Source of the DNA: Axinella damicornis
Lineage: Eukaryota > Porifera > Demospongiae > Axinellida > Axinellidae
Assembly (NCBI GenBank): GCA_963931865.1
Contig: OZ007508.1
Coordinates: 9,546,781 to 9,610,780, forward strand
Direction: 5' to 3'
DNA length: 64,000 bases
Shown: piece after piece, positions 2,797 to 54,316 of the stretch
Numbering within the stretch: the stretch's first letter is position 1
Layout of the letters: each line of letters begins with the position of its first letter
The notes under the pieces: model-generated
Databases searched by the model: none
What the model saw: only the letters and a program-made list of their open reading frames with translations
What the model was told of the DNA's origin: nothing
Translations under genes and position numbers: made by a program

Positions 2797-3452
2797 CTGT
2801 AGGGAAGGGAGAAAGAGAAACCAGAGGAACTGTGTGTGAGTACTGGAGATGGTTCAGAATACTAGTGGATACACTGGAGACGGTTCAGTATATATACTAG
2901 TGGATACACTGGGGATGGTACAGTAGAATCAGTATATATCCTTATATTACTAAGTAACATGTCTCAAAACAGAGAGGTCACTACCACATACTGTTCCTCT
3001 ACAACCTTTTCTCAGAACTCCTGCAGATCACAGTAAGTGTGCCACAAACTCTCCAGAGCTGTTAGGAACATGCCAGTCATTTCACCTAGCATACCACAAG
3101 GCAGCGCCAAAGGTATTCAGTGTCGTACCGTGCCCTCTCAAGCTTACCCCAGAACGACTGCACAGACGACGTCCTGTGCTTGAAACAAGATACTTCAGAG
3201 AAGTTAATTCCTCTGTCAGTTCAAATGACAAGAATTCCACAGCGAAAAAGTTCATAATTCCAACACAGCCATGTATGCCAAGGACAACTAATAGTGAGTG
3301 ACTTCTCTACTTAGCCATCACCAACAGCTACCTGCCGCGTGAAGTCTAGTAAGGATGTAACACAAATTATGCTGACTGATCACATACAGGAATTTTGCCA
3401 GGCCCTCTTCCATGTTCCACGTGTGGACCTGGGTACGAGGCTAGTTTGTATC
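2797..3452. other. Intron or intergenic, no gene seen
   Basis: No domain-bearing exon was recognised. At the right edge (about 3430-3443) is a solo right end of the TAGCCTCG element family (ctgggtacgaggcta). Confidence 0.4.
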
Positions 3453-3498
3453 TAACCTCGTTCCAATGAAGGCTCCCTCTGCTCTGTGAACGAGGCTA
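3453..3498. mobile_element. 46-bp TAGCCTCG-family mini-element
   Basis: It begins TAACCTCGTTCC and ends GAACGAGGCTA. The flanking 9-mers are gtttgtatc (3444-3452) and gtttggacc (3499-3507), which agree at 7 of 9 positions. It has the same length as the copy at 6628-6673. Confidence 0.6.
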
Positions 3499-3954
3499 GT
3501 TTGGACCTATGATTATTGTCGAAGAAATTAATTCAGGGGTACATACGTACATGTGACCAACACTTCTCACAAGCGTGCGGATCACCTAAGTATAAGACAG
3601 GAATTGAGCTGTTCAGGTGATTATCACAACTTTGCTAAATTGACAATACACGTACATACACACACAGTCAAATTACCAGTACTATAACTAAAATCATCCA
3701 CAAAGATGCCTCCATTTGAACGTGGCGAGAGGCTAGACCGCGAGACTAATTTACCACCACGTGGCTAGTACGCTGAGTGTATTCCCTAGTCCCATTCCCA
3801 GACCCCAATGCTCTGCTGTAAGGTTTGATTTGATCAGATTACACGGAACACCTTTTCCCCTACCAGGAGTTCGATCGATTGTCCAGGATGGTCTGGGTAT
3901 CTCCAGTGAACAGAATACCCAGACACAGGGGGTGATGATGGGAAGGTATTACGA

Positions 3955-4434
3955 TACTAAGATTTTAAGCGTGTGTACATCTGTCCGTGTTTGCATAACG
4001 GAAGTGGGACATTTGGGGGGCCGGACTAACTATAGCGATGCACAACCTTTGCACTTTACTACTGTACCTCTGAACCTCAAACTCTACGAAGATTGCATAA
4101 GAATGATGAGCAATGGCAAGAGAAACATATTCAGAACGGCTGAGGCTGTGAGCTGACACAATCCAGGAACATTAGGTGAAGCAAATGCGATCTGAGGGCA
4201 GCAGCTGAAGCGAATGCAATCAGAGAGTGAAGTGGACACGACTGGTGGGCTGCAGCTGAAGTGGGCGTGATCGGGGCAAAATCAGGGAGCAGCAGCTGAG
4301 GTGGACGCGATCAGGGAGCACCAGCTGAGGCGGACATGTCGGGGAGCAGCAGGTGAGGTGGACATGATCAGGGAGCAGCAGCTGAGGCGGACATGGTAGG
4401 TGAATGAAGTGGAAGTAGCTGAGCACAGCTACTT
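3955..4434 (-). repeat. Interspersed repeat with terminal hairpin and ~30-bp minisatellite, copy 2 (inverted)
   Basis: This is an inverted copy of the 601-1027 element. It starts with taagattttaa, holds agcagctgaggtgg-type units, and ends in the hairpin AGTAGCTGAGCACAGCTACT. Confidence 0.65.
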
Positions 4435-4791
4435 GTTGTAAATCGACAGTGTGCTAGTATTCAAACTGTACCACTCAGAGCAGCAGTTACATGTACATCT
4501 AAAGCTTAATATGCAGTCAACCACAGAACATATTCATGACCTCAGTGCAGTGCCAATACTTGTGCACAGATGCTCCCAGGTGACATGAAGCTGGTACTTG
4601 TGCAGTCGCATGCAATTACAAATGGGTGTGGAGCAAGATAGGAGCAAGATAGGAGTAGCTGAACTAACGACAAAAAGAATCGTCTTGGCTGGTACCAGGT
4701 ACAGAAACGTTCCAGTTTGATATCTGTAAACACCGTAGCTAACCTTCTTGCCGCGCACACGCACAAACAATCAGACTAAGTGCTTTACCCC
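4435..4791. other. Gene-free stretch
   Basis: No supported exon was found. Two overlapping short minus-strand ORFs (4534-4770) have no recognisable domain. Confidence 0.4.
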
Positions 4792-4967
4792 TAGCCTCGT
4801 TCCCAGGCCTCCCCCGTTTTTTCTGTTCTTCGGTTTCCGTTGACAATAATACACGGATGCGGAAGGGCAGCGAAAACCGCGTTTTTCGCCGCCCTTCTTC
4901 ATCCGTGTATTATTGTCAACGGAAACCGAAGAACAGAAAAAACGGGGGAGGCCTGGGAACGAGGCTA
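4792..4967. mobile_element. 176-bp fully palindromic TAGCCTCG-family element
   Basis: Both halves are near-perfect inverted copies running from TAGCCTCGTTCCCAGGCC inward through ttttctgttcttcggtttcc. The flanks are ctttacccc (4783-4791) and ctttatccc (4968-4976), an 8 of 9 match that supports a 9-bp target duplication. The interior is shared with the hairpin at 45739-45861. Confidence 0.85.
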
Positions 4968-5122
4968 CTTTATCCCTGCTGCGCACACACACGTGAGGTA
5001 ATCAGCACTCCCAGGATACCAATTGCATCCAGCCCATGTGTTTCTTCCAGGACTGCAAGCTATTTAAACAGCAGTGCGAACGGGGCTACACTGCAGACTG
5101 AGCATGTACATAGGCAACATAC

Positions 5123-5401
5123 CCTCAACTGTTCTGCATTGTGGCGGAGCTTGTCTGCTGCCCTTTCATCCCACACATCAAGTCCCCGTATGAGCCTCCT
5201 CCAGGAGGGTGCTGGAAACCACCAGTCCAGTAACTTTCGCCTTAGCCTTGTACCCAGGCTACTTTCGCCTTTGATCCTCAGGTATATAGTGATGTTCAAT
5301 TTCTTCACGTTTTGAGTCTGGCGAACACAGGTTGTCGCACAATTTCGTCCACTCCACTTCCTTCATGGCCTCTGTCACTGCCTCTGGTGTCAGTGGAGCC
5401 G
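5123..5401 (-). pseudogene. Death-domain exon interrupted by a 28-bp insertion
   Basis: An acceptor (ctccctgactgcag) opens a minus-strand exon that reads APLTPEAVTEAMKEVEW... up to PEDQRRK. The ORF is then stopped by TAG. Removing 28 bp (element 5243-5261 plus one 9-bp target copy) restores the open frame directly into LLDWWFPAPSWRRLIRGLD and DERAADKLRHNAEQL, a classic second half of a Death domain, and on to donor AGG|GTATGT. The exon was therefore intact before the insertion. As written the product would be truncated in the middle of the domain. A 22-nt GT...AG excision would also be in frame but is far shorter than known metazoan introns. Confidence 0.75.
5243..5261. mobile_element. 19-bp minimal TAGCCTCG-family insertion
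   Basis: The inserted sequence TAGCCTTGTACCCAGGCTA is flanked by perfect 9-bp duplications ctttcgcct (5234-5242 and 5262-5270). It amounts to little more than one terminal repeat closed by the complementary AGGCTA end. It lies inside a Death-domain exon. Confidence 0.85.
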
Positions 5402-5689
5402 CTGCAGTCAGGGAGAACAGAGCATGAAGGTAACACTAAACACAGCAGACAAGATAAAATTATTGTTGACGTACTATACAAAGTTTCTGTTAAGGTGAGT
5501 CTCTCCAAATTCTCACTGAAGTGCTAATTAGCTATGTGATTGAACACAGGAATCTGTTAATACAGCAACATGTTTGCCGTTCTATTAATTAGCTTCATAC
5601 GTTGTACACACGCAATACAGCGCTAGCAGCATGCAGCATACTAGCATGTGGTGCTCCATGGACAGACACAAACCGATGATGGGGTAATA

Positions 5690-6295
5690 ACCAATAACAA
5701 ATAACCATGCAGCCTGTCCCAATAACACTCTCTCCTTCCCAGATACCAATAACCATGTAGCCCTTTCCAACACCCAGACACCAATAACCATGTAGCCCTT
5801 TCCAACACCCAGACACCAATAACCATGTAGCCCTTTCCAACACCCAGACACCAATAACCATGTAGCCCTTTCCAACACCCAGACACCAATAACCATGTAG
5901 CCCTTTCCAACACCCAGACACCAATAACCATGTAGCCCTTTCCAACACCCAGACACCAATAACCATGTAGCCCTTTCCAACACCCAGACACCAATAACCA
6001 TGTAGCCCTTTCCAACACCCAGACACCAATAACCATGTAGCACTTTCCAACACCCAGACACCAATAACCATGTAGCCCGTCCCAATACTCTCTCCACCAA
6101 TAACCTTGTAGCCCGTCCCAACGCTCTCTCCTTCCCAGACACCAATAAATCCAATACTGTCTCCCTTCCCAGATACCAATCAATCACCAGTGTAGCCCGT
6201 CCCAATACTCTCTCCTTCCCAGACACAAATAACCATGTAGCCCGTTCCAAGGCTCTCTCCCTTCCCAGACACAAATAACCATGTAGCCCGTTCCA
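5690..6295. repeat. 35-bp minisatellite
   Basis: About ten near-identical tandem units with a 35-bp period (core accatgtagccctttccaa) run over about 5745-6083, flanked by more degenerate units. Because 35 is not a multiple of 3, the three overlapping minus-strand ORFs (about 180-230 codons) are the same repeat read in rotating frames. I do not call a gene. Confidence 0.9.
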
Positions 6296-6627
6296 AGGCT
6301 AGGGATGAGGCTATAGTGCAGGGGTATACTATGTGGACTTGGGGTCACTCTAAAAGTAGGAATGGGAAATGAGAACTGGAAATGAGGAAATGGGGGGAAG
6401 TGAGGAAAAGGATTGTTTGGTGCTTTGTCTTGTCAAAATTCTCAATTTTCATAGAACCGCCGTTCTGGGTAGTGATTCCAAGGCAGACGACCTTGTCACC
6501 ACTGTAGTTCCTCGCAAGATCGATGAGCGCCATCCGAGCTAGCTGTGCTGGTTGACTTGTCTAGGACACTAGACTCACAGCACGCAAGTGAGGTAACAGT
6601 TTCCTCATTCCTACTTTTAGGTAGAGT

Positions 6628-6673
6628 TAGCACCGTTCCCAGGCTCTTGTTCTCAAGCCTGGGAATGAGGCTA
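6628..6673. mobile_element. 46-bp TAGCCTCG-family mini-element
   Basis: It starts TAGCACCGTTCCCAGGC and ends GCCTGGGAATGAGGCTA. It is flanked by perfect 9-bp duplications aggtagagt (6619-6627 and 6674-6682). Confidence 0.85.
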
Positions 6674-6731
6674 AGGTAGAGTGACCCGTTGCATGGGTTT
6701 GGAGGGTTCATGAGTATAGCTGGGGGGAGGG

Positions 6732-7085
6732 TAGCCTTGTTCCCAGGCCGTTTTGGGAGGGAGAAAAGGCCTGGCAACTTCCGCGAGTAAAAACTGTTAC
6801 TTCTACTGCCAGAGAGTTGGAAGACCCAATCAGATTTCAGATCGCTGTCACATGACAACAGTAAACCAAATTGTGTCATGCGTTGAAACGTCGCAGTCAT
6901 GCCCATTCATCACAATAGTTGATCACTCGACCGTTCTCAGCCGGTAAAAATATCAGAAGTATTACGTGGACTTCACTGCTTGAATGAGGTATGCAATTGC
7001 CGTGACGTTACGTCCGTAAACAGTTTGAACTCGCGGAAGTTGCCAGGCCGTTTCTCCCTCCCAAAACGGCCTGGGAACGAGGCTA
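6732..7085. mobile_element. 354-bp TAGCCTCG-family element
   Basis: The ends are TAGCCTTGTTCCCAGGCC and GGCCTGGGAACGAGGCTA, with inverted arms of about 50 bp (ccgttttgggagggagaaa). The flanking 9-mers gggggaggg and gggagaggg match at 8 of 9. The unique interior shares short stretches (caatcaga...gctgtcac...gcgttga) with the nested element at 26.2-26.7 kb. Confidence 0.8.
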
Positions 7086-7110
7086 GGGAGAGGGGAGAGG
7101 TGTAAGTTAT

Positions 7111-7226
7111 AGTTATATCACGCCTAGGAGGGATGTATCCGGTTTACAGTCACGAGCACGAGGGCGCGAAGCGCCCGAGTGCGAGTGACTGTAAACCGGA
7201 TACATCCCGACTAGGCGTGATCTAAC
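7111..7226. repeat. Long perfect-to-near-perfect hairpin
   Basis: Arms of about 50 bp (atcacgcctaggagggatgt and its complement) meet at a GC-rich loop (gggcgcgaagcgccc). It could be a palindromic MITE, but no clear target duplication is visible. Confidence 0.75.
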
Positions 7227-8443
7227 TGGCTTATCTCACGTTGATTACTGTGGCTACGTCATACTGCAGCACGGTTGCTACGGAGTCTCCTTGGTAACTG
7301 CTTGCGTCACACTGCAGCACGGTTTAGTCTGGCTTCAGTTCAGTGTGTGTTAGCTAGCTAGCTGGCTGTATAGTAGTTGATGTTGTCGTTGAGAAGCAAG
7401 TAGCTAGTTGTTCGCGCGATTCTCGAGGAGTATTGGGCCTATATTCAGTGACGGATGGAGTGACAGCGAGTGATTTCGAAAACAGGACGACTCCTACGTT
7501 GGAATTAAGAAGAAGGGCCGTCTTCGATGTTAGTCAAAGCGGTTTAAACGTAGAAGGAAAGCGAAGAGAGAAGCCTAGTGCTCCCGTAAATGCAAAGGGA
7601 CTGAAGACAAAATGACTGAACGTGAGGTGAGCTGTAAGGATCTAACTCCGTTAGTTTCTGGTCTCCGTGGTTGGTTCTGGCCGCGCGAGTGTGCTTACAG
7701 CATGAAGCAAAGCAATAGTAGCCGAAAGCTCTGTGCCGACCGTCCATCTATCGCATAGACCCATAGCGCTAGTAGCCGAAAGCTCTGTGCCGACCGTCCA
7801 TCTATCGCATAGACCCATAGCGCTTACGCGCGAATATCTTGCTACTTCTCAACTGTTGATCTAGACTACAGACACATTCTCCCCTGATCTGTGTGGACTT
7901 TTGACGTTCACAATGCTACATGTACGACCAAGCGGTTGAACAAACCGTGAACAGTGGGGCTTCCCAGGGCATGTATCAAACATCAAAGGGATATACATCG
8001 CCCCTGTTGCTGTAGCGCGTATACAGTGACTACTGGCACGTGTGATCCGCCCACGCAACGTGAGATAAACCTTTCCATGCAGGTGAAGATAACAGCCTAC
8101 ATGTACACGTAGTTGTCTGCTCAGCCAACAGACGAAGAAACAGCAATGTTCAACAACGCTTCTGTCCCTCACCACACACTTATGCTTCTATCCTCGCACC
8201 ACACATGCACACGCACAGTTAGACTTCATGCACACAAACACACGTACACCACACATCTTGACTTGTATATACATGAAACGTAAGTCATTAGCAGGTATTT
8301 TGCTTTCCATATGTGCATCTCTCTCTACTGTAACACATACGAATACATGCACTCAAATACACCTGTACACAGACACACAAAACACACTACTGCAAAGATA
8401 GTCTCAGCCCCATACCCAAACCAACCCTAGCGTGGATCGCTTT
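7227..8443. other. Gene-poor stretch with a 54-bp perfect duplication
   Basis: A perfect tandem duplication of 54 bp occupies 7717-7770 and 7771-7824 (starts agtagccgaaagctctgtgc). A 60-codon plus ORF (7433-7615) has no recognised domain. The remainder shows nothing supportable. Confidence 0.5.
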
Positions 8444-10098: not shown

Positions 10099-10129
10099 CT
10101 GTCTGGTCACGTTGACGAACCTGTGTGGA

Positions 10130-10840
10130 GGACGGATAAAGGGAGGAGAGATGGACAGGGGAGGGATGGAGGAAGGATGAAGGGAGGAGAGATGGACAGG
10201 GGAGGGATGGAGGAGGGATGAAGGGAGGAGAGATGGACAGGGGAGGGATGGAGGAGGGACGAAGGGAGGAGAGATGGACAGGGGAGGGATGGAGGAGGGA
10301 TGAAGTGAGGAGAGATGGATAGGGGAGGGATGGAGGAGGGACGAAGTGAGAGATGGATAGGGGAGGGATGGAGGACGGATGAATGGAGGAGAGATGGACA
10401 GGGGGAGGGATGGAGGAGGGATGAAGGGAGGAGAGATGGATAGGGGAGGGATGGAGGAGGGACGAAGTGAGGAGAGATGGATAGGGGAGGGATGGAGGAG
10501 GGACGAAGTGAGGAGAGATGGATAGGGGAGGGATGGAGGACAGATGAAGGGAGGAGAGATGGACAGGGGGAGGGATGGAGGAGGGATGAAGGGAGGAGAG
10601 ATGGACAGGGGGAGGGAGGGATGGAGGACGGATGAAAGGAGGAGAGATGGACAGGGGAGGGATTGAGGACAGATGAAGGGAGGAGAGATGGACAGGGGAA
10701 TGATGGAGAAAGGATGAAGTGAGGAGAGATGGATAGGGGAGGGATGGAGGACAGATGAAGGGAGGAGAGATGGACAGGGGAGGGATGGAGGACGGATGAA
10801 GGGAGGAGAGATGGACAGGGGAGGGATGGAGGAGGAAGAT
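10130..10840. repeat. 41-bp purine-rich minisatellite
   Basis: About 17 units have a 41-bp period (gatggacaggggagggatgg core with variants), all purine on the plus strand. Long Pro/Ser/Leu minus-strand ORFs in all frames are repeat artefacts. It lies between two SH3 exons. A pure GA tract of this length could form triplex DNA (inference). Confidence 0.9.
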
Positions 10841-11616: not shown

Positions 11617-12455
11617 CTGTGTGTGTGAAGTGAGGAGATATGGCCGGGATGTGAAAGGGTAAGGCAGGGGCGGATACAGGATTTGTGAAAGGGAGGGTCT
11701 AAGCACAATTGAACACTGCCGAAGGCAGCGCATAGAGTGGAAATATTTTTTCACCCTCATTTTTCAGCTGTCAGGATGGGCTCTTGTGGTACCTTCGTGC
11801 TTTGCACTGATGTACATGTATGAGTAGCAACACAAATTCTGAGTGGTCTGGGTCTCGCTTCCTTCAGGTGGGTGAAGAACTAGAGGTGTACACGTATCTT
11901 GGCCTTTACAAAAAAAATGCCGTAGACCACATGCACAGTACAGCTGCACAGTACAGCTGCGTAGTCGCGCCGCGCTCCGCCTAATAACGGGTTGTCTCGA
12001 TTCCAGATCATCGGACTGGGAGTGCGTACTCGTAACTGCGATCAGTAGCCGTGTGAGACGTGAAACCGATGGCTCACCTTTGTGTAGCAAGCAGACAAAT
12101 GGCAGTAACAGACAGAGCTCTGGGTAAGTTCTGTTTAACCACACTCCAAAGACATGCCATCTACCTAGCTTGGAAGTCCTAGCTTGGAAGTCCCCCCCCG
12201 GGATCCGCCCCTGTAAGGGATTGGAACATGAGGACACAACCAGCCAGCAACAGGACCCTATAGACTTATGATTGTCTGTCTTCCAATTGATATCATCACA
12301 CATGTACCCATAGCCTCGTTCCCAGGTGCTCAGAGAAGAGCGCCTGGTATCCACTGTTTGCGCATGCACGGCTATTTGTGGAGAACTTGGAAACTACTGC
12401 TACACTAGACCGTCCGTGTTACACAACCGTACATTACTGAGTTGTTAAGATCTAC
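11617..12455. other. No gene recognised
   Basis: It holds a solo left end of the TAGCCTCG family near 12313 (tagcctcgttcccagg) and otherwise unremarkable sequence. The long minus ORF (11764-12369) shows no domain. Confidence 0.4.
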
Positions 12456-12710
12456 ATGTATATACATGTACAAGACGCAGCTCTGTTCAACCAAGCTGTG
12501 CCGTATGTCCTCGGAAAACTAGGAATGGTGCTGAAGGACGAACAACTGACAGCAATACAGCACGTACATAATGTGATTGTATGGCTACATACACTGAACC
12601 ATTTGTATCGTGCTTCGCATCCACAGAAAGGCAGAAGCAGCGTATCGCCATCCACAGACTTCAAAACAATTGACCTGTATAATGCTGGAGTAGTATATTT
12701 TACCAAATAA
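12456..12710 (+). pseudogene. RecQ-like helicase N-terminal fragment
   Basis: Eighty-four codons are open. Residues 10-45 (FNQAVPYVLGKLGMVLKDEQ then LTAIQHV and IVWL) resemble the Q-motif region just before the Walker A of RecQ-family helicases. The expected GKD segment and the GxGKS motif are missing, and the rest of the ORF is unrelated. I read it as a truncated copy, perhaps from a helicase-bearing mobile gene. It abuts the MITE at 12716, which may have truncated it. Confidence 0.4.
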
Positions 12711-12715
12711 TATTC

Positions 12716-13022
12716 AAGGGGGGGTCACTCCCATAGACTCTATAGTCACAGCTGCGACTGCAGTCGGTCAATGGTCAACGGTCAAAGCCGCCCAAACGGG
12801 TGCAGTCAACGGTCAAAGCGGCTCAAAAGTACAGTCAAAAACGCGCGCCGCTCTCTTTATGGCGACGTGCAGGCAAGTATTACAAGGGCAAATAGCTGAT
12901 CGGTCAAAGGTCAACGGACGAAAATCGGCGTGGTCAACGGTCAAAACTCCAAAAACAGCGGTCCAAGCTTTGACCCGCGGTCGCAGCTGTGACTATAGTG
13001 TCTATGGGAGTGACCCCCCTTG
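12716..13022. mobile_element. About 305-bp MITE, GTCACTCCCATAG family
   Basis: Inverted ends run ggggggtcactcccatagac...tatagtcacagctgcgac and its complement gtcgcagctgtgactata...gggagtgaccccc. The interior is rich in ggtcaacggtcaaa. A second family member is at 46098-46362. The target duplication is ambiguous. Confidence 0.8.
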
Positions 13023-13193
13023 ATATTTATTTGTCTGTGTTATTTCAGCTTACGTATCTCGATAGAGAATGTAATGGAACTGCTCACGCATGTGCACCAG
13101 GCGCCCTTCTCCCCAATTACCGAGCGCTTTGGAAGGAGGCTAATGTACCATTTCTCACCAGACATGCCCCACCCCTCTCCAGAATGTACCTAC

Positions 13194-15232: not shown

Positions 15233-15804
15233 TAGTCTCGTTCCCAGACGTTCACGCCCACGGCGGAGAACGTCTGGTCGTTTGAGTTACATTTCTTGTC
15301 ACAGAGGCGTGGCCAGTGTAGGTGTAATTGAAGCGCTGATTGTGCTAAGAATGCAATTTATCAGAGAAATGTGAAGATAAACGCTCCTTTCTGTACTATT
15401 TGTCGTGCAACCCTACCTTCAAGCACTCAGCGACGTCCCCTAACCCCCGAAACATCCGCTGCTAGCAGAAGGGCAGTGGACTTCTTCGTCATTCCGGTGT
15501 TGCCGTAAACCGTTGTTTTTCGAAGTTGGAGATGGCTGAAAGGTTCTTAGAAGCTACGAAGGGGTGTCATCAACCAACAACGAAGTAAGTCCTCGTTACG
15601 AGCTGTTCAAACTGAGCTGTTTTTGACTCCTCCATCGATCGGTGACGTAATGCACGATGATTAGTAGCAAATTACGCGCGCGCTCTTTGATTTCATTGGC
15701 CATCTCAAATTCCAGATGGGAAAGGTGTTAATGACAAGAAATCGCACTCAAAAGACCAGACCCTCTCCGCGGCGGCGCACGGGACGGGTCTGGGCACGAG
15801 ACTA
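15233..15804. mobile_element. 572-bp TAGTCTCG-subfamily element with perfect 9-bp TSD
   Basis: The ends are TAGTCTCGTTCCCAGAC and GTCTGGGCACGAGACTA. The flanks are gtctctgca at 15224-15232 and 15805-15813, a perfect match. The interior holds an exon-like segment at 15532-15584 (ATG, 17 codons, donor CGAA|GTAAGT), which may be a captured host first exon as in Pack-MULEs (inference). Confidence 0.85.
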
Positions 15805-17849: not shown

Positions 17850-18110
17850 GTCTGGAACCAGACTGCTGGGAAGTTGGGCTGAGTGCCGGGAACCAGGCTA
17901 GGTTGAGTGCAGAGTGCCGGGAACCAGGCTAGGCTGAGTGCCGGGAACCAGAGTGCCGGGAACCAGGCTAGGCTGAGTGCCGGGAACCAGAGTGCCGGGA
18001 ACCAGGCTAGGCTGAGTGCCGGGAACCACCCTGTCAGTGAGAGAGCTGCTAACCCTGTCAGGGAGAGAGCTGTTAACCCTGTCAGGGAGAGAGCTGCTAA
18101 TCCTGCCAGG
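17850..18110. repeat. Tandem repeat of gccgggaaccaggctag units
   Basis: Repeated gctgagtgccgggaacca blocks in two lengths are followed by three cctgtcagggagagagctg units. The motif gggaaccaggcta resembles the end of the TAGCCTCG family. Confidence 0.75.
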
Positions 18111-18788: not shown

Positions 18789-19350
18789 CAGCCTCATTCC
18801 CAGGACAGGATTCGATCACTTGCAGCAAATACACTAGGGGAAGGCATGGGAGATAAGGTTATGTGCAGTGCCATCAGGTACACGGGAGGTAGACACACGG
18901 GAGGTAGACACACGGGGGGTAGACACACGGAGGGTAGACACACGGGGGGTAGACACACGGGGGGTAGACACACGGGGGGTAGACACACGGGGGGGGGGGG
19001 GGGGGGGGGGGGTGGTGCCCAACAAAGAATCTCGATGCCCTTTCTTGTACTGTCACTAGTACTGTCCATCCATAGGCTGATTGTTAGACAAGGCAGACGA
19101 TCAATACTGTTGTCACAACGCCAGGGACAGATGGACGTCAGGGACGGCTGGACGTCAAACAGGTACAATAAGGCCTCCAGTGTGTCTACCCTCTGTCTAG
19201 CTGAACACAGGACTAAGTCTCCAACTGACATCATCCAAAATGCCCAAATCTCGTCATTGCACGTGACCAGATCTCCCAGGCCTTCCCCGCCGTATCTGCA
19301 TGCTGCAAGCGATCAAATACTGGTGGTGGTGCTGGCATGGGACGAGGCTA
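18789..19350. mobile_element. 562-bp TAGCCTCG-family element with expanded interior
   Basis: Ends cagcctcattcccagg and gggacgaggcta are flanked by 9-mers caatccaca and ccaaccaca (7 of 9). Homologous copies lie at 46474-46820, 49846-50213, 51007-51373 and 52181-52552. In this copy the internal gtagacacacgg segment is amplified into about 7 units of 16 bp (about 18878-18988) followed by a poly-G run of about 24. Confidence 0.75.
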
Positions 19351-19411: not shown

Positions 19412-19985
19412 AGGGAGGAGTCTGGGAGGAGGGACGCAGGGAGGAGCCTGGGAGGAGCCTGGGAGGAGGGACGCAGGGAGGAGCCTGGGAGGAGGGACGC
19501 AGGGAGGAGCCTGGGAGGAGGGACGCAGGGAGGAGCCTGGGAGGGACGCAGGGAGGAGCCTGGGAGGAGGGACGCAGGGAGGAGCCTGGGAGGAGGGACG
19601 CAGGGAGGAGCCTGGGAGGAGGGACGCAGGGAGGAGCCTGGGAGGAGGGACGCAGGGAGGAGCCTGGGAGGAGGGACGCAGGGAGGAGCCTGGGAGGAGG
19701 GACGCAGGGAGGAGCCTGGGAGGAGGGACGCAGGGAGGAGCCTGGGAGGAGGGACGCAGGGAGGAGCCTGGGAGGAGGGACGCAGGGAGGAGCCTGGGAG
19801 GAGGGACGCAGGGAGGAGCCTGGGAGGAGGGACGCAGGGAGGAGCCTGGGAGGAGGGACGCAGGGAGGAGCCTGGGAGGAGGGACGCAGGGAGGAGCCTG
19901 GGAGGAGGGACGCAGGGAGGAGCCTGGGAGGAGGGACGCAGGGAGGAGCCTGGGAGGAGGGGCGCAGGGAGGAGCCTGGGAATGA
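19412..19985. repeat. 26-bp minisatellite derived from a MITE end
   Basis: About 21 units of a 26-bp period (gacgcagggaggagcctggg core). The array ends in gcctgggaatgagacta, a family right terminus. The same subterminal sequence in single copy is at 21964-21995 (gatgcgtagggaggagcctg), so the unit is the subterminal part of the element. Long Gly/Glu/Arg ORFs are artefacts. Confidence 0.85.
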
Positions 19986-21545: not shown

Positions 21546-21935
21546 GTGAAGGACGCATGGCAGACGCTGTCCCCTCCTGCCCCCTCCCCCTCCCACCTGT
21601 GTTTGTATTGAGTGTGGTTGCCACAGGTCACCGATTCATTAGCAAGATGTGTGGGTGTGTGGGTGTGCGACACGTAAGATGTAAGTACCAATGTCAGGAA
21701 CAACTGGAAGGGCGTTATAGCTTCGTGGGGTGGGCCCGAGTGATGCATGCAGCCACATGCAGTAATAGGCTCAGCTTGTAGCCTCGTTCCCAGGCTCCCC
21801 CAGTTCGAGGTTCAGTAAATAAATTAAAGTACGAATCTTGCTAATGAATCGGTGACCCGTGGCAACCACACTCAATACAAACACAGGTGGGAGGGGGAGG
21901 GGGCAGGAGGGGACAGCGTCTGCCATGCGTCTGCC
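21546..21935. repeat. Inverted repeat, two ~100-bp arms
   Basis: Arm 21546-21645 (gcatggcagacgctgtcccc onward) is the reverse complement of 21836-21935. A solo tagcctcgttcccaggc end and a duplicated piece of the copy-3 tail (ttcagtaaataaattaaagt) lie between them. Confidence 0.75.
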
Positions 21936-22110
21936 TCTGCCCCCCCCCCCCCCCCCCCCCGTAGATGCGTAGGGAGGAGCCTGGGAACGAGGCTACTCGT
22001 GAAACACTCCAGAATAGGCAGCAGACAAGATGGCTACCACTGTACCATGACTGGTGACGAGAAGTGCATATGTATTGCATCTCTGACTTGCATACACACG
22101 AACATGTACA
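21936..22110. repeat. Poly-C tract and element end
   Basis: A C run of about 20 at about 21941-21960 is followed by gtagggaggagcctgggaac and GAGGCTA, a right terminus of the TAGCCTCG family. Confidence 0.7.
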
Positions 22111-32651: not shown

Positions 32652-32824
32652 TACTTCGAACCTTGACGAGGAGACTGGATAGGCGAGATAGACACTCGAA
32701 GACTACTCAGCGATTTATTCGAAACGGGAAGAAAACAATGAACGGATCGGAAACAGCCGCTCCAGGCGGCTTGCCATGAAAACGGAGACTAAGAGGAGGC
32801 CACAGAGGCTCTGCAACACGAACA

Positions 32825-35800
32825 ATGAACATTATTGACGCTCTGCTGGCCGAAGAAAGCCCAGATCTCGCCCGCTTGGCACAACTCAAGCGGAGTCTTG
32901 AAGAGAAACTAAGCACGTTGACACGATTGGACTCGGAAATATTGGACCTCACTGAAGATGAGGACTTGGATACTGAAATACAGGAGGCTGACGAGTTCAA
33001 GGACCGTGTGTACGGAGCAATTGTAAGGCTTGATAAGTGCACCCGCACACCCACTGGACCTGTTATACTACCGGTCCCCACACCAGTCACGACTTCGGCT
33101 GCGACACCTCCAGCTGGCGCACCAGTCGTGGTCACAACAGCTCCTACTACTGAACCGCTAGTCACCTCTCCAGTTCTAACAGCTCCTACGGGAGGTGCAG
33201 TTATGACCACGGCTACAGAAACCTCAACGGTTGCTCCGACCACGTCTGCGACAACTCCCATTTCTACCCCAGCTGTCATTCCTACACTTGGAGTGCGACT
33301 ACCCAAGCTCACGATCCAGCCGTTTGATGGTAATGTGACCCTTTGGACCTCGTTTTGGGACTCGTATGACTCAGCAATCCATCAGAATACTGGTCTGAGT
33401 GGAGTCGACAAGTTCAATTACCTTCGTTCACTGCTGAAGGGATCGGCACGAGATGCTGTCTCAGGATTGATGCTCACCGAGGTCAACTACGCGGAGGCCA
33501 TTTCTATTCTGAAGCGCCGTTTTGGGAACAAGCAGCAGATAATATCCAAACATATGGATATCCTCATGAGTATTGAAGCAGTGACGTCCCCCCACAATGT
33601 GAAGGCTCTACGTCACTTTCATGATGTCGTCGAGTCGAACATCAGAAGTCTGAAGGCACTGGGCGTGGCAGCAGAAACGTATGGAAGCCTACTAGCATCT
33701 GTCCTCATGAACAAACTACCTGGAGACTTACGCCTGATCATCGGCCGTAAGATTGGGGAAGCAGATTGGCAACTGGACGCTATCATGACGGAACTGCTGC
33801 AAGAGGTTGAAGCCCGCGAACGAGCAAACCCACTGTCAGGTTCCAGCCTGAGCAATCCGAAGAGGGGCGGGGGAAGAACGCCACCAACAGCTGCCACTTT
33901 GTTCCTGGGAGATAAGCCAAATTGCTGCTACTGCAATCATAGCCACACCCCCGAGAGATGTGACCAAGTAAACAGCCCAGAGGAGCGTAAACAAGCTCTA
34001 ATGAAGTCTGGCAGGTGCTTTGTGTGCTTGAGGAGAGGACACATTGGTCGACAGTGTCGTTCCAAGTTACGCTGTGTTGCGTGTGGAGGAAGGCACCATT
34101 CCTCAATCTGTGCTAAGACAAGGGAGAAGGAACCATCTGGGCAGGTGGAAGCCCCCATGACTGGACTCAACCCAACAGCCCCCTCCTTTCAACCGCCAAC
34201 GACCTCGTCGACGCTCCTAGTCAATGCGAGGGGACCAGTGTTGCTGCAAACCGCGAGAGTAAAACTGTTCAATCCTGAAAATCCTGAGAGAACGGTTGAA
34301 GTCAGAGCCATTCTCGACACTGGCAGTCAACAATCCTATGCGACCAAGAAGGTGAAAGATGTTCTGTCGCTAAGATGTCATGAGAAGCGAACAATGTCTG
34401 TTGTGACCTTCGGAGCAAGTGACGAGAGGACGCAGACCTATGATGTTGTCAGGATTGGAGTTACGACAAGGGACAGCCAGAAGCAAGAGATGGAGTTTGT
34501 TTGTACCCCGTTGATTTGTCAACCACTGACGGTGCAGCCCATTGACCTCTTCCAGAAAAGGTATCGACATTTGGCTGGTCTTGATCTCGCAGACCCCAAT
34601 CAGGGAGGGAATGATCTGATGGAGGTGGACCTCCTGGTTGGTTCAGACTACTACTGGTGGTTCGCAACTGGTGAGACCAAGAGAGGTGAGGATGGCCCCG
34701 TAGCTGTACACACTAGGCTGGGATGGGTCTTGTCTGGCATATTGTCAATGGAGAAGAGCTGCTCGACAGCTCACAACCTCCTCACTACACATTGTTTGAG
34801 AATCGAAGCCATACCGTCCACTCAAGACCCTCTGGACGAAGTCTTGCATTCCTTTTGGAACCTAGAATCAATGGGTGTTGACTCCAAGACAGACTCAGTC
34901 CTAGAAGAGTTTACACAGACGGTGCAGTTCAAGGACGGGCGGTATGAGGTATCACTCCCATGGAAGAGCTCACACCCCATGTTGCCAGACAACTACCTGT
35001 TGAGCAGGAAGCGGCTAGATGGCCTTGTCAAACGACTCAGACATGATCCAGAAGTGTTGAAAGAGTATGACTCAATCATCCAGAGCCAACGAAGCCAAGG
35101 CATCGTAGAAGAGGTCAATCCGCAAGAAGAGTCAGTCGATGGCCAGATACACTATCTACCTCACCACGCTGTTGTGAGAAGAGACAAATCCACTACCAAG
35201 GTGCGTGTCGTGTACGACGCCTCAGCTCGATCGACAGGGTGTTCACTGAATGAATGTTTACACAAGGGACCAAAGTTCGACCAGAAGATTCTGGATATCC
35301 TGATCCGATTTCGGACTCACAAGATTGCTCTAACAGCCGACGTTGAAAAAGCGTTCCTGATGGTATCTGTGCAAGAGTCTGATCGAGATGTGCTGCGGTT
35401 CCTGTGGTTCGACGACGTACACAGTGAGAATTGCAAGATGATTTGTCTCAGGTTTACCAGAGTGGTATTTGGGGTCTCATGTAGTCCCTTCCTGTTGAAT
35501 GCCACCCTGCGACACCACCTTGACAAGTACGTCACTTCACATCCCGAAACGGTCAACAAACTGACTGCATCCCTGTACGTGGACGACGTAGTCACAGGAG
35601 CTAAGGACGAGGAAGAGGCGTACCAACTCTACCTGGAGTCCAAGAGTGTCCTCAAGGAAGGAGGTTTTAACCTCCGCAAATTTGTGACCAACGCCGGCTC
35701 CCTGCAAGTGAAGATTGATGCGAAGGAAGGGTCGGCTCATAGTCCTCGTGATGATCAGTCATCGGTTGGTCCTACAGATGAAACCTACACCAAAGCTACA

Positions 35801-38410
35801 TTGGCCCCAGCCCAACCAGTGCTCTCTGGTGAACAGAAGATTCTTGGTGTCTGCTGGAATGTGGACGATGACCAGCTGCATTTTGGATTTGCCAATATAG
35901 CTCATCAAGCTAGACAGCTGGAACCCACCAAGCGGAACGTAGTGAGTATAGTGGGACGTTTCTATGATCCACTAGGGTTTCTATCCCCAATTGTCATTCG
36001 CTTCAAGACGCTGTTTCAAGAGCTGTGCGAAAGGGGACAAGACTGGGATCAGCCGCTCGCACTGGATTTGTTGGCCAAGTGGAAGGGGCTGATTGATGAG
36101 CTGGAATGCTGTCCAGTGATGTGTCTGCCCCGGTGTATCTGGAATGGATCTCCTACTGAAGGTGTAAGTTGCTCATTGCATGGGTTTTGCGATGCCTCAA
36201 AGCATGCTTATGCAGCAGTTGTGTATCTGGTACTTCAGAGTCCAGTGGGACAAACAGTGAGATTCATAGCATCCAAAACTAGGGTGTCCCCACTGAAGCC
36301 TCAGACAATTCCCCGGCTTGAGTTACTGTCTGCGCTATTGCTAGCCAGACTAATGAAGAGTGTTGCCACAAGCCTAGGATCAGAAATGAAGTTAGAGGAA
36401 CCTACCTGTTATACCGACTCTGAAGTATCCTTGTATTGGATTCAGGGTGTTGACCGTGTTTGGAAGCAGTTCGTTCAGCACCGTGTGATAGAAATTAGGG
36501 ATCTTCTCCCTAGTGCTTGCTGGCGTCATTGCCCGGGTGTTGACAACCCAGCCGACTTGCCCTCTAGAGGTGTTAAACCAGCTGACCTTGCCAAGAATGA
36601 CTTGTGGTTAAGTGGGCCCCAGTGGATTGGAACTGTATTTGATGAAGAATCCCAGTTTGAGATGCCTGCTGAGTGCTCGACCGAACTGCGAGCAAGGGAC
36701 AGGCCGATAGTATTGAGGGTGGATGCCATCAAGGACAATTCAAATGTTGAAGAGCTGATTGATTGCCAACGATACAGCTCACTGCAAAACCTTTTGAGTA
36801 TCACTGGTCGAGTATTAGAGTTTGTCCACAGACTCAGAATGAAGACAAGGCACGCTGTTGACGTGTCCACAGAACTGAACCATAACCAAGGGGCTGAATT
36901 GCTTTGGATTCGAGCTGCTCAGGTACAGCTTTTGCAAGATCCTTACTTTGAGAAGTTGAAGGGACAGTTTGGTCTCTTCTTCGACGAGGAGGGTGTTTGG
37001 AGGTGCGGTGGACGTCTGTCCAAGGCAGAAATCCCATATGGTGTAAAACACCCTATCCTGTTACCCAGACAACACCATCTGACCACATTGGTTGTGAGAC
37101 GTGCACACTCGAGAGTCCTTCACAATGGTGTGAAAGAAACACTCACCGAAGTTAGGTCCAAGTTTTGGATCGTCAAGGGTCGGGCTTTCGTGAAGAAGTG
37201 TATACACCAGTGTGTTGTCTGCAAGAAGTACGAAGGGAGACCCCTCATTGGACCCACTCCTCCTCCACTGCCTGAGTTCAGAGTGCACCAGGAGCCCCCT
37301 TTCACTTTCACCGGAGTGGATTTTGCGGGACCTCTCCATGTCAAGTTTGGAAGCACTGCCTCGGAGAGTAAGGTATGGATATGTCTCTATACCTGTTGTG
37401 TAACTAGAGCAGTGCATCTTGAGGTGGTACCAGATTTAACAACTGCAGCATTCCTACGAAGTTTAAAGCGTTTTACCGCCCGTAGAGGCCTACCCAGAAG
37501 ATTTGTGTCAGACAACGGTAAAACCTTTAAGGCTGCTTCCAAGGCCATCCAGGCAATGATGCAACATGAGGAGGTACAACAGTACTTGGCAGGTGTGGGG
37601 GTACAATGGACTTTCAATCTGGCTAGAGCTCCGTGGTGGGGTGGTGTATTTGAACGCATGATAAGAATGACCAAACGCTGCCTCAAGAAGATTGTGGGGA
37701 GAGCTAGACTCACTCTGGACGAGTTTACCACTCTGATAACAGAAGTAGAAGGAGTCATCAATTCTCGACCCATCTCATACGTGTCATCTGATGACACCGA
37801 GGAACCTCTGACACCTGCTCACTTACTGTGTGGCCGTAGACTTCTCAGTCTTCCTGACTCAATTTGCTACACTGATTCTGAAGAAGAGTACGGTCTCAGC
37901 CGGGAACATTTGACGAGACGATTGGTGCACCTCAATAAACTGCTGAGTGACTTCTGGAGCAGATGGCAAACAGAATATCTCCTGGAATTGAGAGACAGCC
38001 ACAGATATGTGGGAAAAACTTCAGACAAAGACTCTGTACGTGTGGGAGATGTTGTGTTGGTGCATGACACAAAACCGAGAGGCTTCTGGAAGCTTGCCCG
38101 AATCACTAAACTCGTATCAGGACAGGATGGACGCGTGTGTGGTGCCATACTGAAAGTGGCCTCTCCGGGTAAGAAGGCCCACACACTGAAGCGCCCACTT
38201 CAACGTTTGTACCCACTGGAAATACCTCACCCATCATCAGATGAGAGAGTTGAGGAACTGATTCTTGAACACGATACAGAAACCCAAGCTACCGAAGCAG
38301 AAAATGGAACTGTTGAGCGATCTGGTCGACCTATGAGGTCTGCGGCAAAGAAGGCCCGAGACAACATCAGAGCTATCGCCTTTTGTGAACAGGACAGTGA
38401 TCAGGACTAA
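32825..38410 (+). CDS. BEL/Pao gag-pol polyprotein
   Basis: 1861 residues in one frame. Approximate order: acidic N-terminus and Thr/Pro linker (1-155); gag-like DUF1759 region (about 160-330); Cys-rich zinc knuckles (about 369-425, with CFVCLRRGHIGRQC); retroviral-type aspartic protease with DTGSQ (about 498); reverse transcriptase (about 790-950, catalytic YVDD near 918); RNase H (about 1115-1250, GFCDAS and CYTDSE); integrase zinc finger (about 1427-1469, H-H-C-C), integrase core with D...D...E (about 1495, 1562, 1607); and a C-terminal DUF5641 domain (about 1700-1800). All catalytic residues I can check are present. There is no env-like ORF. The product makes cDNA from the element RNA and integrates it. 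Confidence 0.95.
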   Translation: MNIIDALLAEESPDLARLAQLKRSLEEKLSTLTRLDSEILDLTEDEDLDTEIQEADEFKDRVYGAIVRLDKCTRTPTGPVILPVPTPVTTSAATPPAGAPVVVTTAPTTEPLVTSPVLTAPTGGAVMTTATETSTVAPTTSATTPISTPAVIPTLGVRLPKLTIQPFDGNVTLWTSFWDSYDSAIHQNTGLSGVDKFNYLRSLLKGSARDAVSGLMLTEVNYAEAISILKRRFGNKQQIISKHMDILMSIEAVTSPHNVKALRHFHDVVESNIRSLKALGVAAETYGSLLASVLMNKLPGDLRLIIGRKIGEADWQLDAIMTELLQEVEARERANPLSGSSLSNPKRGGGRTPPTAATLFLGDKPNCCYCNHSHTPERCDQVNSPEERKQALMKSGRCFVCLRRGHIGRQCRSKLRCVACGGRHHSSICAKTREKEPSGQVEAPMTGLNPTAPSFQPPTTSSTLLVNARGPVLLQTARVKLFNPENPERTVEVRAILDTGSQQSYATKKVKDVLSLRCHEKRTMSVVTFGASDERTQTYDVVRIGVTTRDSQKQEMEFVCTPLICQPLTVQPIDLFQKRYRHLAGLDLADPNQGGNDLMEVDLLVGSDYYWWFATGETKRGEDGPVAVHTRLGWVLSGILSMEKSCSTAHNLLTTHCLRIEAIPSTQDPLDEVLHSFWNLESMGVDSKTDSVLEEFTQTVQFKDGRYEVSLPWKSSHPMLPDNYLLSRKRLDGLVKRLRHDPEVLKEYDSIIQSQRSQGIVEEVNPQEESVDGQIHYLPHHAVVRRDKSTTKVRVVYDASARSTGCSLNECLHKGPKFDQKILDILIRFRTHKIALTADVEKAFLMVSVQESDRDVLRFLWFDDVHSENCKMICLRFTRVVFGVSCSPFLLNATLRHHLDKYVTSHPETVNKLTASLYVDDVVTGAKDEEEAYQLYLESKSVLKEGGFNLRKFVTNAGSLQVKIDAKEGSAHSPRDDQSSVGPTDETYTKATLAPAQPVLSGEQKILGVCWNVDDDQLHFGFANIAHQARQLEPTKRNVVSIVGRFYDPLGFLSPIVIRFKTLFQELCERGQDWDQPLALDLLAKWKGLIDELECCPVMCLPRCIWNGSPTEGVSCSLHGFCDASKHAYAAVVYLVLQSPVGQTVRFIASKTRVSPLKPQTIPRLELLSALLLARLMKSVATSLGSEMKLEEPTCYTDSEVSLYWIQGVDRVWKQFVQHRVIEIRDLLPSACWRHCPGVDNPADLPSRGVKPADLAKNDLWLSGPQWIGTVFDEESQFEMPAECSTELRARDRPIVLRVDAIKDNSNVEELIDCQRYSSLQNLLSITGRVLEFVHRLRMKTRHAVDVSTELNHNQGAELLWIRAAQVQLLQDPYFEKLKGQFGLFFDEEGVWRCGGRLSKAEIPYGVKHPILLPRQHHLTTLVVRRAHSRVLHNGVKETLTEVRSKFWIVKGRAFVKKCIHQCVVCKKYEGRPLIGPTPPPLPEFRVHQEPPFTFTGVDFAGPLHVKFGSTASESKVWICLYTCCVTRAVHLEVVPDLTTAAFLRSLKRFTARRGLPRRFVSDNGKTFKAASKAIQAMMQHEEVQQYLAGVGVQWTFNLARAPWWGGVFERMIRMTKRCLKKIVGRARLTLDEFTTLITEVEGVINSRPISYVSSDDTEEPLTPAHLLCGRRLLSLPDSICYTDSEEEYGLSREHLTRRLVHLNKLLSDFWSRWQTEYLLELRDSHRYVGKTSDKDSVRVGDVVLVHDTKPRGFWKLARITKLVSGQDGRVCGAILKVASPGKKAHTLKRPLQRLYPLEIPHPSSDERVEELILEHDTETQATEAENGTVERSGRPMRSAAKKARDNIRAIAFCEQDSDQD

Positions 38411-45738: not shown

Positions 45739-45861
45739 TAGCCTCTTTCCCAGGCCTACCCTGTTTTTTCTGTTCTTCGGTTTCTGTTGACAATAATACA
45801 CAGAATATTATCAACAGAACCGAAGAACAGAAAAAACGGGGTAGGCCTGGGAACGAGGCTG
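45739..45861. mobile_element. 122-bp palindromic TAGCCTCG-family element
   Basis: Inverted halves start TAGCCTCTTTCCCAGGCC and share the interior of the element at 4792-4967. acgcggat occurs on both flanks but offset by a few bases, so the target duplication is imperfect. Confidence 0.75.
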
Positions 45862-46473: not shown

Positions 46474-46820
46474 TAGCCTTGTTACCAGGCTGTTCCCACC
46501 GCCAGTATAAATACGGTGGGGGAAGGAAAGCCTGGGAGAGCTGGTCAAGTGCGATGACATCCGGTAGACAGACGGTAAACACGGGGGGGGGGGGGGGTGA
46601 CCGACCATTACAATACCTGTATCAATCACCTGCCTTGCTGATATCCAACCTGTGGATGGACAGTACAAGAAAGGACATCAAGAATCTTCGTTGGGCACTG
46701 CCCTCCGTGTGTCTACCTGATGGCACCGCACGTGACCGGATCTCCCAGGCCTCGACCCCACCATATTTCATACTGCAAGCAATCAATACTGGCGGTGGGA
46801 ACGGCCTGGGAACGCGGCCA
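46474..46820. mobile_element. 347-bp TAGCCTCG-family element
   Basis: Ends tagccttgttaccaggc and gcctgggaacgcggcca. Flanking 9-mers are caattcata and aagttcata (7 of 9). A poly-G run of about 14 sits at the same internal place as in the copy at 18789-19350. Confidence 0.7.

Positions 46821-47874: not shown

Positions 47875-47916
<42 letters not shown>

Positions 47917-48219: not shown

Positions 48220-48251
<32 letters not shown>
48220..48251. repeat. Poly-C tract
   Basis: C homopolymer of about 32 bp. Confidence 0.95.
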
Positions 48252-48253
<2 letters not shown>

Positions 48254-48589: not shown

Positions 48590-49560
48590 AGAACCGCACG
48601 AACCAGTGAACCGCACGAACCAGTGAACCCCACGAATCAGTGAACCTCACGAACCAGTGAACCGCACAAACCAGTGAACCGCACGAACCAGTGAACCGCA
48701 CGAACCAGTGAACTACACGAACCAGTGAACCGCACGAACCAGTGAACCTGCACGAACCAGTCAACCGCACGAACCAGTCAACCGCACGAACCAGTCAACC
48801 GCACGAACCAGTGAACCGCACGAACCAGTGAACCTCACGAACCAGTGAACCGCTTGAAAGAGCGAACCTCACGAACCAGTGAACCAGTGAACCAGTGAAC
48901 CACACTAACCAGTGAACCGCACGAACCAGTGAACCTCACGAACCAGTGAATCAGTGAACCGCACGAACCAGTGAACCTCACGAACCAGTGACCAGTGAAC
49001 CGCACGAACCAGAGAAACCTAACGAACCAGTGAACCAGTGAACCGCACGAACCAGTGAACTTCACGAACCAGCGAACCAGTGAACCGCACGAACCAGTGA
49101 ACCTCACGAACCAGTGAACCAATGAACCGCACGAACCAGTGAACCTCCCGAACCAGCGAACCAGTGAACCGCACGAACCAGTGAACCTCACGAACCAGCG
49201 AACCAGTGAACCGCACGAACCAGTGAACCAGTGAACCGCACGAACCAGTGAACCTCACGAACCAGTGAACCAGTGAACCGCACGAACCAGTGAACCTCAC
49301 GAACCAGTGAACCAGTGAACCGCACGAACCAGTGAACCTCACGAACCAGCGAACCAGTGAACCGCACGAACCAGTGAACCTAACGAACCAGCGAACCCGT
49401 GAACCGCACGAACCAGTGAACCTAACGAACCAGCGAACCAGTGAACCGCACGAACCAGTGAACCGCACGAACCAGGGAACCGCACAAACCAGTGAACCGC
49501 ACGAACCAGTGAACTAGTGAACCGCATGAACCAGTGAACCTCACGAACGCGAACCAGTGA
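48590..49560. repeat. 17-bp minisatellite
   Basis: About 1 kb of a 17-bp period (accgcacgaaccagtga) mixed with short gaaccagt half-units. Val/Arg/Phe/Gly ORFs on the minus strand are artefacts. Confidence 0.9.
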
Positions 49561-49639
49561 CGCACACGAAACACGTACGTACCTGGTGTACTGTGTATAG
49601 TAATGAACAGCACGTGAGTGACGCAGTCATGGGACAAGT

Positions 49640-52600: not shown

Positions 52601-52837
52601 GTGTTCTGTCTTCTATCAATTCAGTATTGATTAGCTAGGTAGCTATAGTTAAGTCTATGTGTTAATAGATTAGCTACTAATACAGTAAACTAGTTAACTA
52701 ACAAGGATTACTGTTCATATCAAGTGCACATGTGTAGTTGAGATATCCTAGAAGACGCTTTAAGTGATTATAAGTAAGAACTTGGACGTTTAAAAGAGGG
52801 GATGAGAGGAGGGTGTGCATTCAAGGCGGGGTATTAG

Positions 52838-53449
52838 TAGCCTCGTTCCCAGGCCTTCCACACCTCCAGCTTTTGATCGCTTCCAGTATGCAAAAACGGA
52901 GGGGGAAGGCCTGTGGAATCTTCTCATGTGATATGCGGCACGACCGCCATACATCGTCATGCCTCATATCAACAGTCAAAGACATGTACGAGACCGATCT
53001 TGCATTCCGCGCTAGCTATGAAGATGGGACAAGCGCCAACTGAGAGCTACACCGAGCGTATGAAGCATACCCAGGCTACAAGGCATGACTCCAAAGGGCT
53101 GCCGAGTGACAAATGTAAAAATACCCAGCTATGACGCAATCTTCCCGTGGAGTGAAAAGACGGCACTATTTGGAGTTTCACCCCTTGTATCACAGCTATC
53201 CCTCAGTGGTTTTGCTTCGAACCTGGATATGTTTTACAGGTAGGACCTACCTCTTCTCTGAAACTTGTTTCAGTTTTCTAGCTTCTCTGTAGCTGTGGAT
53301 GGGAATGTAAATAAGCTATTGCATCTAGAATCCGTGACGTCAGCTGTGCCACGTATCACGTGAGAAGATTCCCCAGGCCTTCCCCCTCCGTTTTCGCATA
53401 CTGGAAGCGATCAAAAGCTGGAGGTGTGGAAGGCCTGGGAACGAGGCTA
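52838..53449. mobile_element. 612-bp TAGCCTCG-family element with perfect 9-bp TSD and long TIRs
   Basis: Inverted arms of about 95 bp run from TAGCCTCGTTCCCAGGCC. Flanks gggtattag (52829-52837, 53450-53458) are identical. The interior has a 74-codon plus ORF with no recognised domain and no transposase. Confidence 0.9.
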
Positions 53450-54316
53450 GGGTATTAGTGGGAGACAATAATGTATGTAGACTTTAGCCATCTTCTCTCC
53501 AAGTGCATGGCCATTTCAAGCATTATCGTAAACGCTGATGTAACGTGACATAACATGGACCGGTCGAAAAGCCATGGATGACAATATGTAGTGGTGACAA
53601 TCGAGTGCTTATGCTATTGCTGCTCTGTTAGTGCAATTTTGAATCTGCTCTCGTAGAGAAGTGTGTCCTGGGAGCAGATTTGATCTTGGGTTCATTGCAA
53701 GAACAAGTGTTTCACCAATCTCGCCACGAAACAAAGTTACATGACCCATTAGCGGTATTTCTAAGAGCAGCATCTTCCAATCAATTTTCCTTGTCCTTTG
53801 GCACACTAAGCTCAAAACGTTTCTTCGATGCTTTTGAATTTGGTAGGCGTCTCATTGTCAGTAGCAAGAACTTTCATCGCTCGCTGGACTCAGTCATGCC
53901 TACATAAAATTTATGGAACCAAACTTCGCAGCTAGTTTACCGTATTTATACTGATACATCCAATCAAGGTACATCCAATCAAGGTAGATCCATCCAATCA
54001 GGTTACATCCAATTAAGAATTCCTTGAATTTCCACTAACCCAATTAAGAGGTAGCCTGATACTAATTATTGTGATTCCAATCTAAGATAGCAGAAATGCA
54101 CTTATCTAAACAGCATGAGTTCCAAGTAGGAATGAGGCTATTGTGCTTTTTTTCTCCAGTTATGCTATTTCACAATGCTCCAGATTATGTCCAATTATCC
54201 TCTTGCTATATTATTCTTATTCTCCGATTATGGTCTTGATATAGCGCACTTGAGATCCGAAGTACTGCTTGTTAGCCAGCGAGGTGGATATATCTTCAGT
54301 CTTCTATTTCTGAAAC
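53450..54316. other. No gene recognised
   Basis: Contains a short direct repeat of acatccaatcaaggt (53950-54010) and a decayed aggaatgaggcta end near 54128. Confidence 0.4.

Follow-up and report, generated by a model that had tools for sequence, protein, structure and literature searches.

How small can a DNA transposon be and still move as a unit? The question is raised by a stretch of 64,000 nucleotides from the sponge Axinella damicornis (assembly GCA_963931865.1, contig OZ007508.1, positions 9,546,781 to 9,610,780 of the forward strand; G000:C4:9546781-9610780 in our numbering), hereafter the window, which lies inside a 226.5-Mb eukaryotic genome assembly. A sequence-only reading of the window had described elements of 19 to 612 bp with a single family of inverted ends and a constant 9-bp target duplication. 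We found that the elements are non-coding, that their size ranges from about 30 bp to kilobases, and that nothing is constant in this family except a pair of inverted ends, each of about 16 bases, and the 9-base target duplication. We consider it likely that copies down to 46 bases moved whole, presumably by cut and paste by a Mutator-like transposase acting in trans.

Inverted ends and a nine-base target duplication

The 15-base end motif TAGYCTCGTTCCCAG was searched with the reversed motif as a control of specificity. The genome contains 31,686 exact ends, while the reversed control gave 0 matches; within the window, 51 ends with up to three mismatches were found, as compared with 2.35 expected from shuffles. 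An end of this type is an imperfect palindrome in its own right, and its bases 4 and 16 tend to change together (C with G in 120 of 240 cases, T with A in 36, the remaining 84 differing), so that one end alone can resemble a 19-bp element. Related types of end have TAGYCTCG in common and diverge after it, as does TAGTCTCGCAAGCCAG, which bounds a 4,254-bp non-coding element with the duplication AAGCTGGGC. The palindromic end pattern was not found in the prokaryotic genome contigs or viral contigs searched, as expected of an animal element. In the open-access literature, the exact end sequence searched as a word returned no paper, and size-superlative phrases returned nothing relevant; that the family is not in print holds for these searches only.

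Flanking 9-mers were compared in a sample of 31 loci (300,505 bases), made up of the window, 16 stretches (10 kb each) placed at fixed, round coordinates, seven 3-kb end loci and seven loci with Mutator-like elements (MULEs). L002, the eighth of the 3-kb loci, was left out on account of its overlap with L001; L007 and L008, which have 647 bases in common, were both retained, no counted element lying inside that shared part. Among 1,111 pairs of ends less than 6 kb apart, 25 had flanks identical at 9/9, 15 at 8/9 and 15 at 7/9, whereas 65,030 control pairs made of ends from different loci gave 0, 6 and 115, respectively. Pairs scoring 8/9 and 9/9 are therefore secure, and about 2 of the 15 pairs at 7/9 are expected by chance. 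Allowing each end to enter only one pair left 39 elements with a score of at least 8/9. Their lengths run from 19 to 5,520 bp with a median of 89 bp, and 14 of them are at most 60 bp long. The longest (L026) includes a nested MULE, and in L010 a 4,254-bp element is nested inside one of 4,371 bp.

The length of the duplication was examined in 38 pairs picked on the quality of their ends alone (at most 130 bp, sum of mismatches at most 2), which avoids choice by duplication. Their mean flank identity was 0.737 at length 9, as against 0.215-0.308 at lengths 6, 7, 8, 10, 11 and 12; 12 pairs were perfect, 19 scored at least 8/9 and 24 at least 7/9. The target duplication is thus 9 bases long, and the claim of a single end family with a constant 9-bp duplication is borne out. 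Pooled and symmetrised, 61 duplications (39+11+11) show a weak preference, with G at position 1 in 47% and T at position 4 in 39%. Some good pairs of ends in the window lack duplicated flanks: the pair at 21779-21995, with both ends exact, scores 3/9, and that at 45739-45861, with one mismatch per end, only 2/9.

The elements are largely inverted arms. Of 26 elements of 30-135 bp, 25 have 55-97% of their bases paired in the fold, the figure for the remaining one being 25%. In 36 elements, the arms differ by 2.78 mismatches per 20 bases within a copy and by 4.79 between copies, an agreement that 0 of 10,000 shuffles reached; descent from a shared master could give equal arm agreement, and correction of one arm by the other is thus not proved. 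Every insertion leaves behind a hairpin together with a duplicated 9-mer; one of them seeded a minisatellite of element plus duplication units.

This minisatellite (G000:C1:1337821-1339053; L062 and L063) has a 58-bp unit, which consists of a 49-bp element and its own 9-base duplication AGCCTGGAC; the same 9-mer closes the array on both sides, as read at its two ends. The array at C1:1376319 (L064 and L065) has a 25-bp unit, made of the first 16 end bases and a 9-base duplication, and its last unit forms a complete element whose right end is degenerate. In the array at C1:862744 (L066) the unit is the first 16 end bases plus 11 flank bases. Both of the latter arrays break at end base 16, and no microhomology was seen there by eye.

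Short copies and their likely mobility

A 46-bp sequence from L015 occurs at 59 places in the genome within three mismatches. Twenty of these were fetched with their flanks, comprising all 16 copies of one identical variant and four of the five copies of a second, which differs by one base. The flanks match at 9/9 in 6 copies, at 8/9 in 11, at 7/9 in 2 and at 6/9 in 1. Reading the flanks grouped the copies into nine with a common flank pair, two in inverse orientation at one site, and nine single ones. There are 11 independent sites (seven for the first variant, four for the second) with 11 different 9-mers, and the best copies are perfect at 6 sites and carry one mismatch at 5. Since the shared 46-bp interior is asymmetric, independent deletions are not a reasonable source of it, and most likely the 46-bp unit moved as a whole.

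Elements with both ends exact and a length of 30-60 bp occupy 1,737 places genome-wide, a count that includes units of tandem arrays; the search pattern is its own reverse complement, so both strands give the same places. The first 50 places listed were reduced to 40 by removing 10 repeats of one array, and in 36 of these 40 the arms match exactly at 16 or more positions, of which 15 were already required by the pattern, the Y/R base excepted. Twenty-one of the 40 are 31-46 bp long; 20 were fetched with flanks and the other was read separately. Flank identity in these 20 was 9/9 in 7, 8/9 in 4, 7/9 in 2, 6/9 in 3 and lower in 4, with a mean of 0.756 at length 9, compared with 0.275-0.320 at lengths 7, 8, 10 and 11.

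The smallest of these 20 with a perfect duplication is a 32-bp perfect palindrome at C1:3384876, composed of two 16-bp ends back to back with no interior and flanked on both sides by AGCTCATTG (9/9). It has 28 exact copies in the genome, the flanks having been read for one. We offer only tentatively, and with some doubt, the idea that the mobile unit is the end itself and that this palindrome of two fused ends is a complete self-spreading DNA transposon. If it is mobile, the unit is far below the persistence length of DNA, and its ends would be paired without a DNA loop, possibly after extrusion of a hairpin that holds both ends in one duplex. In conventional synapsis the transposase has to bring two ends together, and 32-46 bp leaves almost no room for a loop; for IS50, a helical-length constraint has reportedly been observed. 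A natural lower limit on the size of mobile DNA elements is here made testable.

Below this size, 19-mers of the form TAGYCTCGTTCCCAGRCTA number 268 in the genome. When every fifth of the first 100 listed was taken (n=20), none scored above 3/9 in its flanks, and a 9-base duplication was present in 0 of 20; a 19-bp size class was accordingly rejected. At one of the sampled loci (L052), 7 of 8 bases match in an 8-base register. The 19-bp copy in the window (5243-5261) is probably a remnant of internal deletion. The earlier suggestion that copies far below the usual size could be mobilised thus appears to hold for ultra-short copies, with the 46-bp unit at 11 sites and duplications around elements of 32-46 bp, and fails for the 19-bp class.

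We propose that a transposase supplied elsewhere would recognise the end of about 16 bp, and would need little or no spacer between two such ends. It would pair two ends, cut, and insert the element with a 9-base stagger, leaving the interior free to vary or vanish. Long palindromes are unstable, and copies of 30-60 bp may have arisen from longer foldback copies by loss of their centres; some of the shortened copies with two intact ends would remain competent and multiply again, like the 46-bp family. The hard step would be the pairing of ends with 0-14 bases between them, for which we can only speculate that an extruded hairpin would put both ends in one duplex.

The transposase and alternative explanations

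The sequence-only reading had named Mutator-like and Merlin-like transposition as fits to a 9-bp duplication. MULE domains are present in the genome (51 matches to PF10551), and seven MULE loci were read over stretches of 7 to 10 kb, in which ends lying further out would be missed. In one of them, L026, a MULE of 967 amino acids (aa) is enclosed by TAGCC/GGCTA ends that have a perfect 9-base duplication; no other of the seven has a gene inside such ends. This MULE was rejected as the autonomous partner, because other copies of the gene (five; L027-L036) carry ends of their own, GGGCGTTTTTTTTTTTTGGAACC (one with 11 T), seen in four of the five windows on the left and three of the five on the right. 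The L026 MULE is thus an insertion, with its own ends, nested in a small TAGCC element. As a side observation, this open MULE family has poly-T ends, and a target resembling CCGGNNCGG is suggested by the flanks in L026, L027/L028 and L031/L032, read by eye.

The longer elements with these ends (1,975 bp in L017; 4,371 and 4,254 bp in L010) were also rejected as coding relatives: they are non-coding, DNA searches resolved them into nested mosaics of other repeats, and ten open reading frame pieces of the L010 element had no Pfam match at the family cut-off (best E 0.062). At L010:6122-6686 lies a non-coding repeat of about 565 bp that has 99-100% identical copies on several contigs and, given these near-identical copies, was probably active recently.

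Several observations weigh against the movement of whole short copies by a Mutator-like enzyme. The seven MULE loci and the longer elements yielded no coding element with these ends as its boundaries, the longer elements being the repeat mosaics just described. Three of the loci have different ends of their own, namely L026, L025 (ends GGGCGTATGGAAAAGC, duplication CATTTCATC) and L039 (element 2238-7447, ends unlike the TAGYCTCGTTCCCAG type, 9-base duplication ACCTTTTGT), and in L037, L038, L040 and L041 no recognisable TAGYCTCG pair surrounds the MULE gene within the stretches read. Genes for hAT transposases are abundant too, with at least 150 matches to the hAT dimerisation domain. As to the short copies, nine of the 20 fetched 46-mers go back to a single insertion that was copied as part of a larger repeat, and the number of copies therefore overstates movement. 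Among the 20 smallest elements, 7 score 6/9 or less. The sole 31-bp element scores 1/9, and in one element with a score of 1/9 (L101) 8 bases match once the flank is shifted by one base. Some of the smallest elements are therefore decayed, rearranged or not simple insertions.

It is possible, if in our view doubtful, that shortening happens only after insertion, the elements that jump all being longer (about 90 bp or more) and the smallest ones being immobile remnants with deleted centres. Long foldback copies with related arms do exist, the interiors of the 40 distinct elements of 30-60 bp show great diversity, which is what random deletions would produce, and the 19-bp copy resembles such a remnant. 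This explanation meets its difficulty in the 46-bp family, where one asymmetric interior, in two variants one base apart, lies at 11 sites within 11 duplications; independent deletions would need the same two points each time, which is very unlikely. The tandem arrays of element pieces (L062, L064 and L066) and the agreement of arms within copies could also be taken to mean that the elements are not transposons, and are instead hairpin repeats spread by template switching or tandem amplification. We regard this as highly improbable, because scattered copies, each between exact 9-base duplications, are what insertion at a staggered cut characteristically leaves, and because the 58-bp array, its unit being an element plus its own duplication, grew from an insertion.

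The enzyme itself might be other than a MULE, for instance an unusual hAT or a member of an undescribed superfamily with a 9-base duplication, and we give this limited credence in view of the numerous hAT matches, the lack of a MULE with these ends in the seven loci read, and the ends themselves, which start with TAG or CAG, as some hAT ends do. However, hAT target duplications are of 8 bases, whereas the flank identity of the quality-picked pairs drops from 0.737 at length 9 to 0.27 at length 8; moreover, the three MULE families with readable ends (L025, L026 and L039) have flanks fitting 9-base duplications. Merlin duplications, at 8-9 bases, would suit the family, but a Merlin-type origin, which the sequence-only reading had entertained, now appears most improbable: there are 0 matches to PF12762 (DDE_Tnp_IS1595) genome-wide, in a search that was positive in 1 of 14 control genomes. 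Nor did the Rehavkus type, also named in that reading, gain from the analysis. In a Pfam scan of five MULE loci (L040 and L041 excluded), a PHD finger was found in L039 only, whose ends differ, and the combination of a PHD finger with a minisatellite before the 3' end was not seen; nor was any coding copy with these ends seen to carry a minisatellite. The PHD finger of L039 lies in a second open frame, which also has a sub-threshold match to the acetyltransferase family PF03421.

Our assignment of the elements is to ultra-short, hairpin-shaped foldback DNA transposons resembling miniature inverted-repeat transposable elements (MITEs), Mutator-like by the length of their duplication and not filed as MULEs. 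The Mutator-like label follows from the 9-base duplication, the nil result for Merlin and the presence of MULE genes, and not from a gene with these ends. Like MITEs, the elements are non-coding, have high copy number and hairpin potential, and combine terminal inverted repeats (TIRs) of about 15-16 nt, above the 10-nt minimum for MITEs, with a target duplication of constant length (9 bases only); an autonomous relative with the same ends was not found in the MULE loci read. For class II non-autonomous elements, detectMITE took 50-800 nt as its reference range from Repbase (PMC4726161). Many copies comply with it, whereas those of 32-49 bp with duplications are too short for the 50-nt lower limit of at least this one MITE reference set, and a very numerous class of insertions may be overlooked.

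In the MULE superfamily, which includes Phantom and Rehavkus, duplications are of 8-11 bp overall and of 9 bp in many groups (PMC6446971), and the 9-bp duplication falls inside this range. MULE TIRs are there described as typically long, commonly hundreds of bp, whereas the invariant part of the sponge elements is about 16 bp (PMC6446971). The nearest system in the literature read is the Mutator/Foldback element Tm1 of root-knot nematodes, which likewise has foldback structure, mostly 9-bp duplications with no clear target consensus, and mainly MITE-like, non-autonomous copies, its only autonomous copy being found in one of two species (PMC3169594). Tm1 elements number 61 and measure 0.17 to 2.5 kb (MITE-like mean 431 bp), whereas the sponge family has its tens of thousands of exact ends and copies down to 32-46 bp; the ends of Tm1 consist of asymmetric motifs and tandem repeats of about 14 bp, whereas those of the sponge elements are symmetric (PMC3169594). 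Tm1 also has a known, Phantom-like MULE transposase (PMC3169594), unlike the sponge family, for which none with these ends was found in the seven MULE loci.

Elements and other features of the window

All nine coordinate pairs of the sequence-only reading, with their flank scores, were reproduced exactly; every element is given on the + strand. Four have perfect 9/9 flanks: the 19-bp copy TAGCC-TTGTACCCA-GGCTA (5243..5261), a single self-palindromic end between copies of CTTTCGCCT; a 46-bp element with hairpin potential (6628..6673; flanks AGGTAGAGT), 78% of whose bases are paired in the fold; a 572-bp element of the TAGTC subtype (15233..15804; flanks GTCTCTGCA); and a 612-bp element with both ends exact (52838..53449; flanks GGGTATTAG). 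Two score 8/9, namely a 176-bp element with both ends exact and long foldback arms (4792..4967; flanks CTTTACCCC / CTTTATCCC) and a 354-bp element whose terminal arms match (6732..7085; flanks GGGGGAGGG / GGGAGAGGG).

The three copies with 7/9 flanks are probable elements of the family, all with degenerate or mismatched ends: one of 46 bp (3453..3498; 3 and 1 mismatches, flanks GTTTGTATC / GTTTGGACC), a 562-bp candidate (18789..19350; 2 and 3 mismatches to the consensus of the sequence-only reading) and a 347-bp candidate (46474..46820; 2 mismatches per end). An additional candidate pair of 832 bp (12311..13142), absent from the earlier set, has ends with 0 and 3 mismatches and flanks ATGTACCCA / ATGTACCAT at 7/9, and is uncertain.

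Elsewhere in the window, a tandem array of 39-bp units (17881-18028) contains the end-like sequence TAGCCTGGTTCCCGG, and long minisatellites at 5738-6122, 10126-10835, 19450-19981 and 48591-49540 are crossed by open frames. A BEL-type retroelement frame of 1,876 aa runs uninterrupted through 32780-38410. Over the part scored it is 94% identical to a 1,705-aa protein, and the list of 120 relatives of the BEL-type protein gives three organism names, those of the sponges Dysidea avara and Halichondria panicea and of the soft coral Dendronephthya gigantea.

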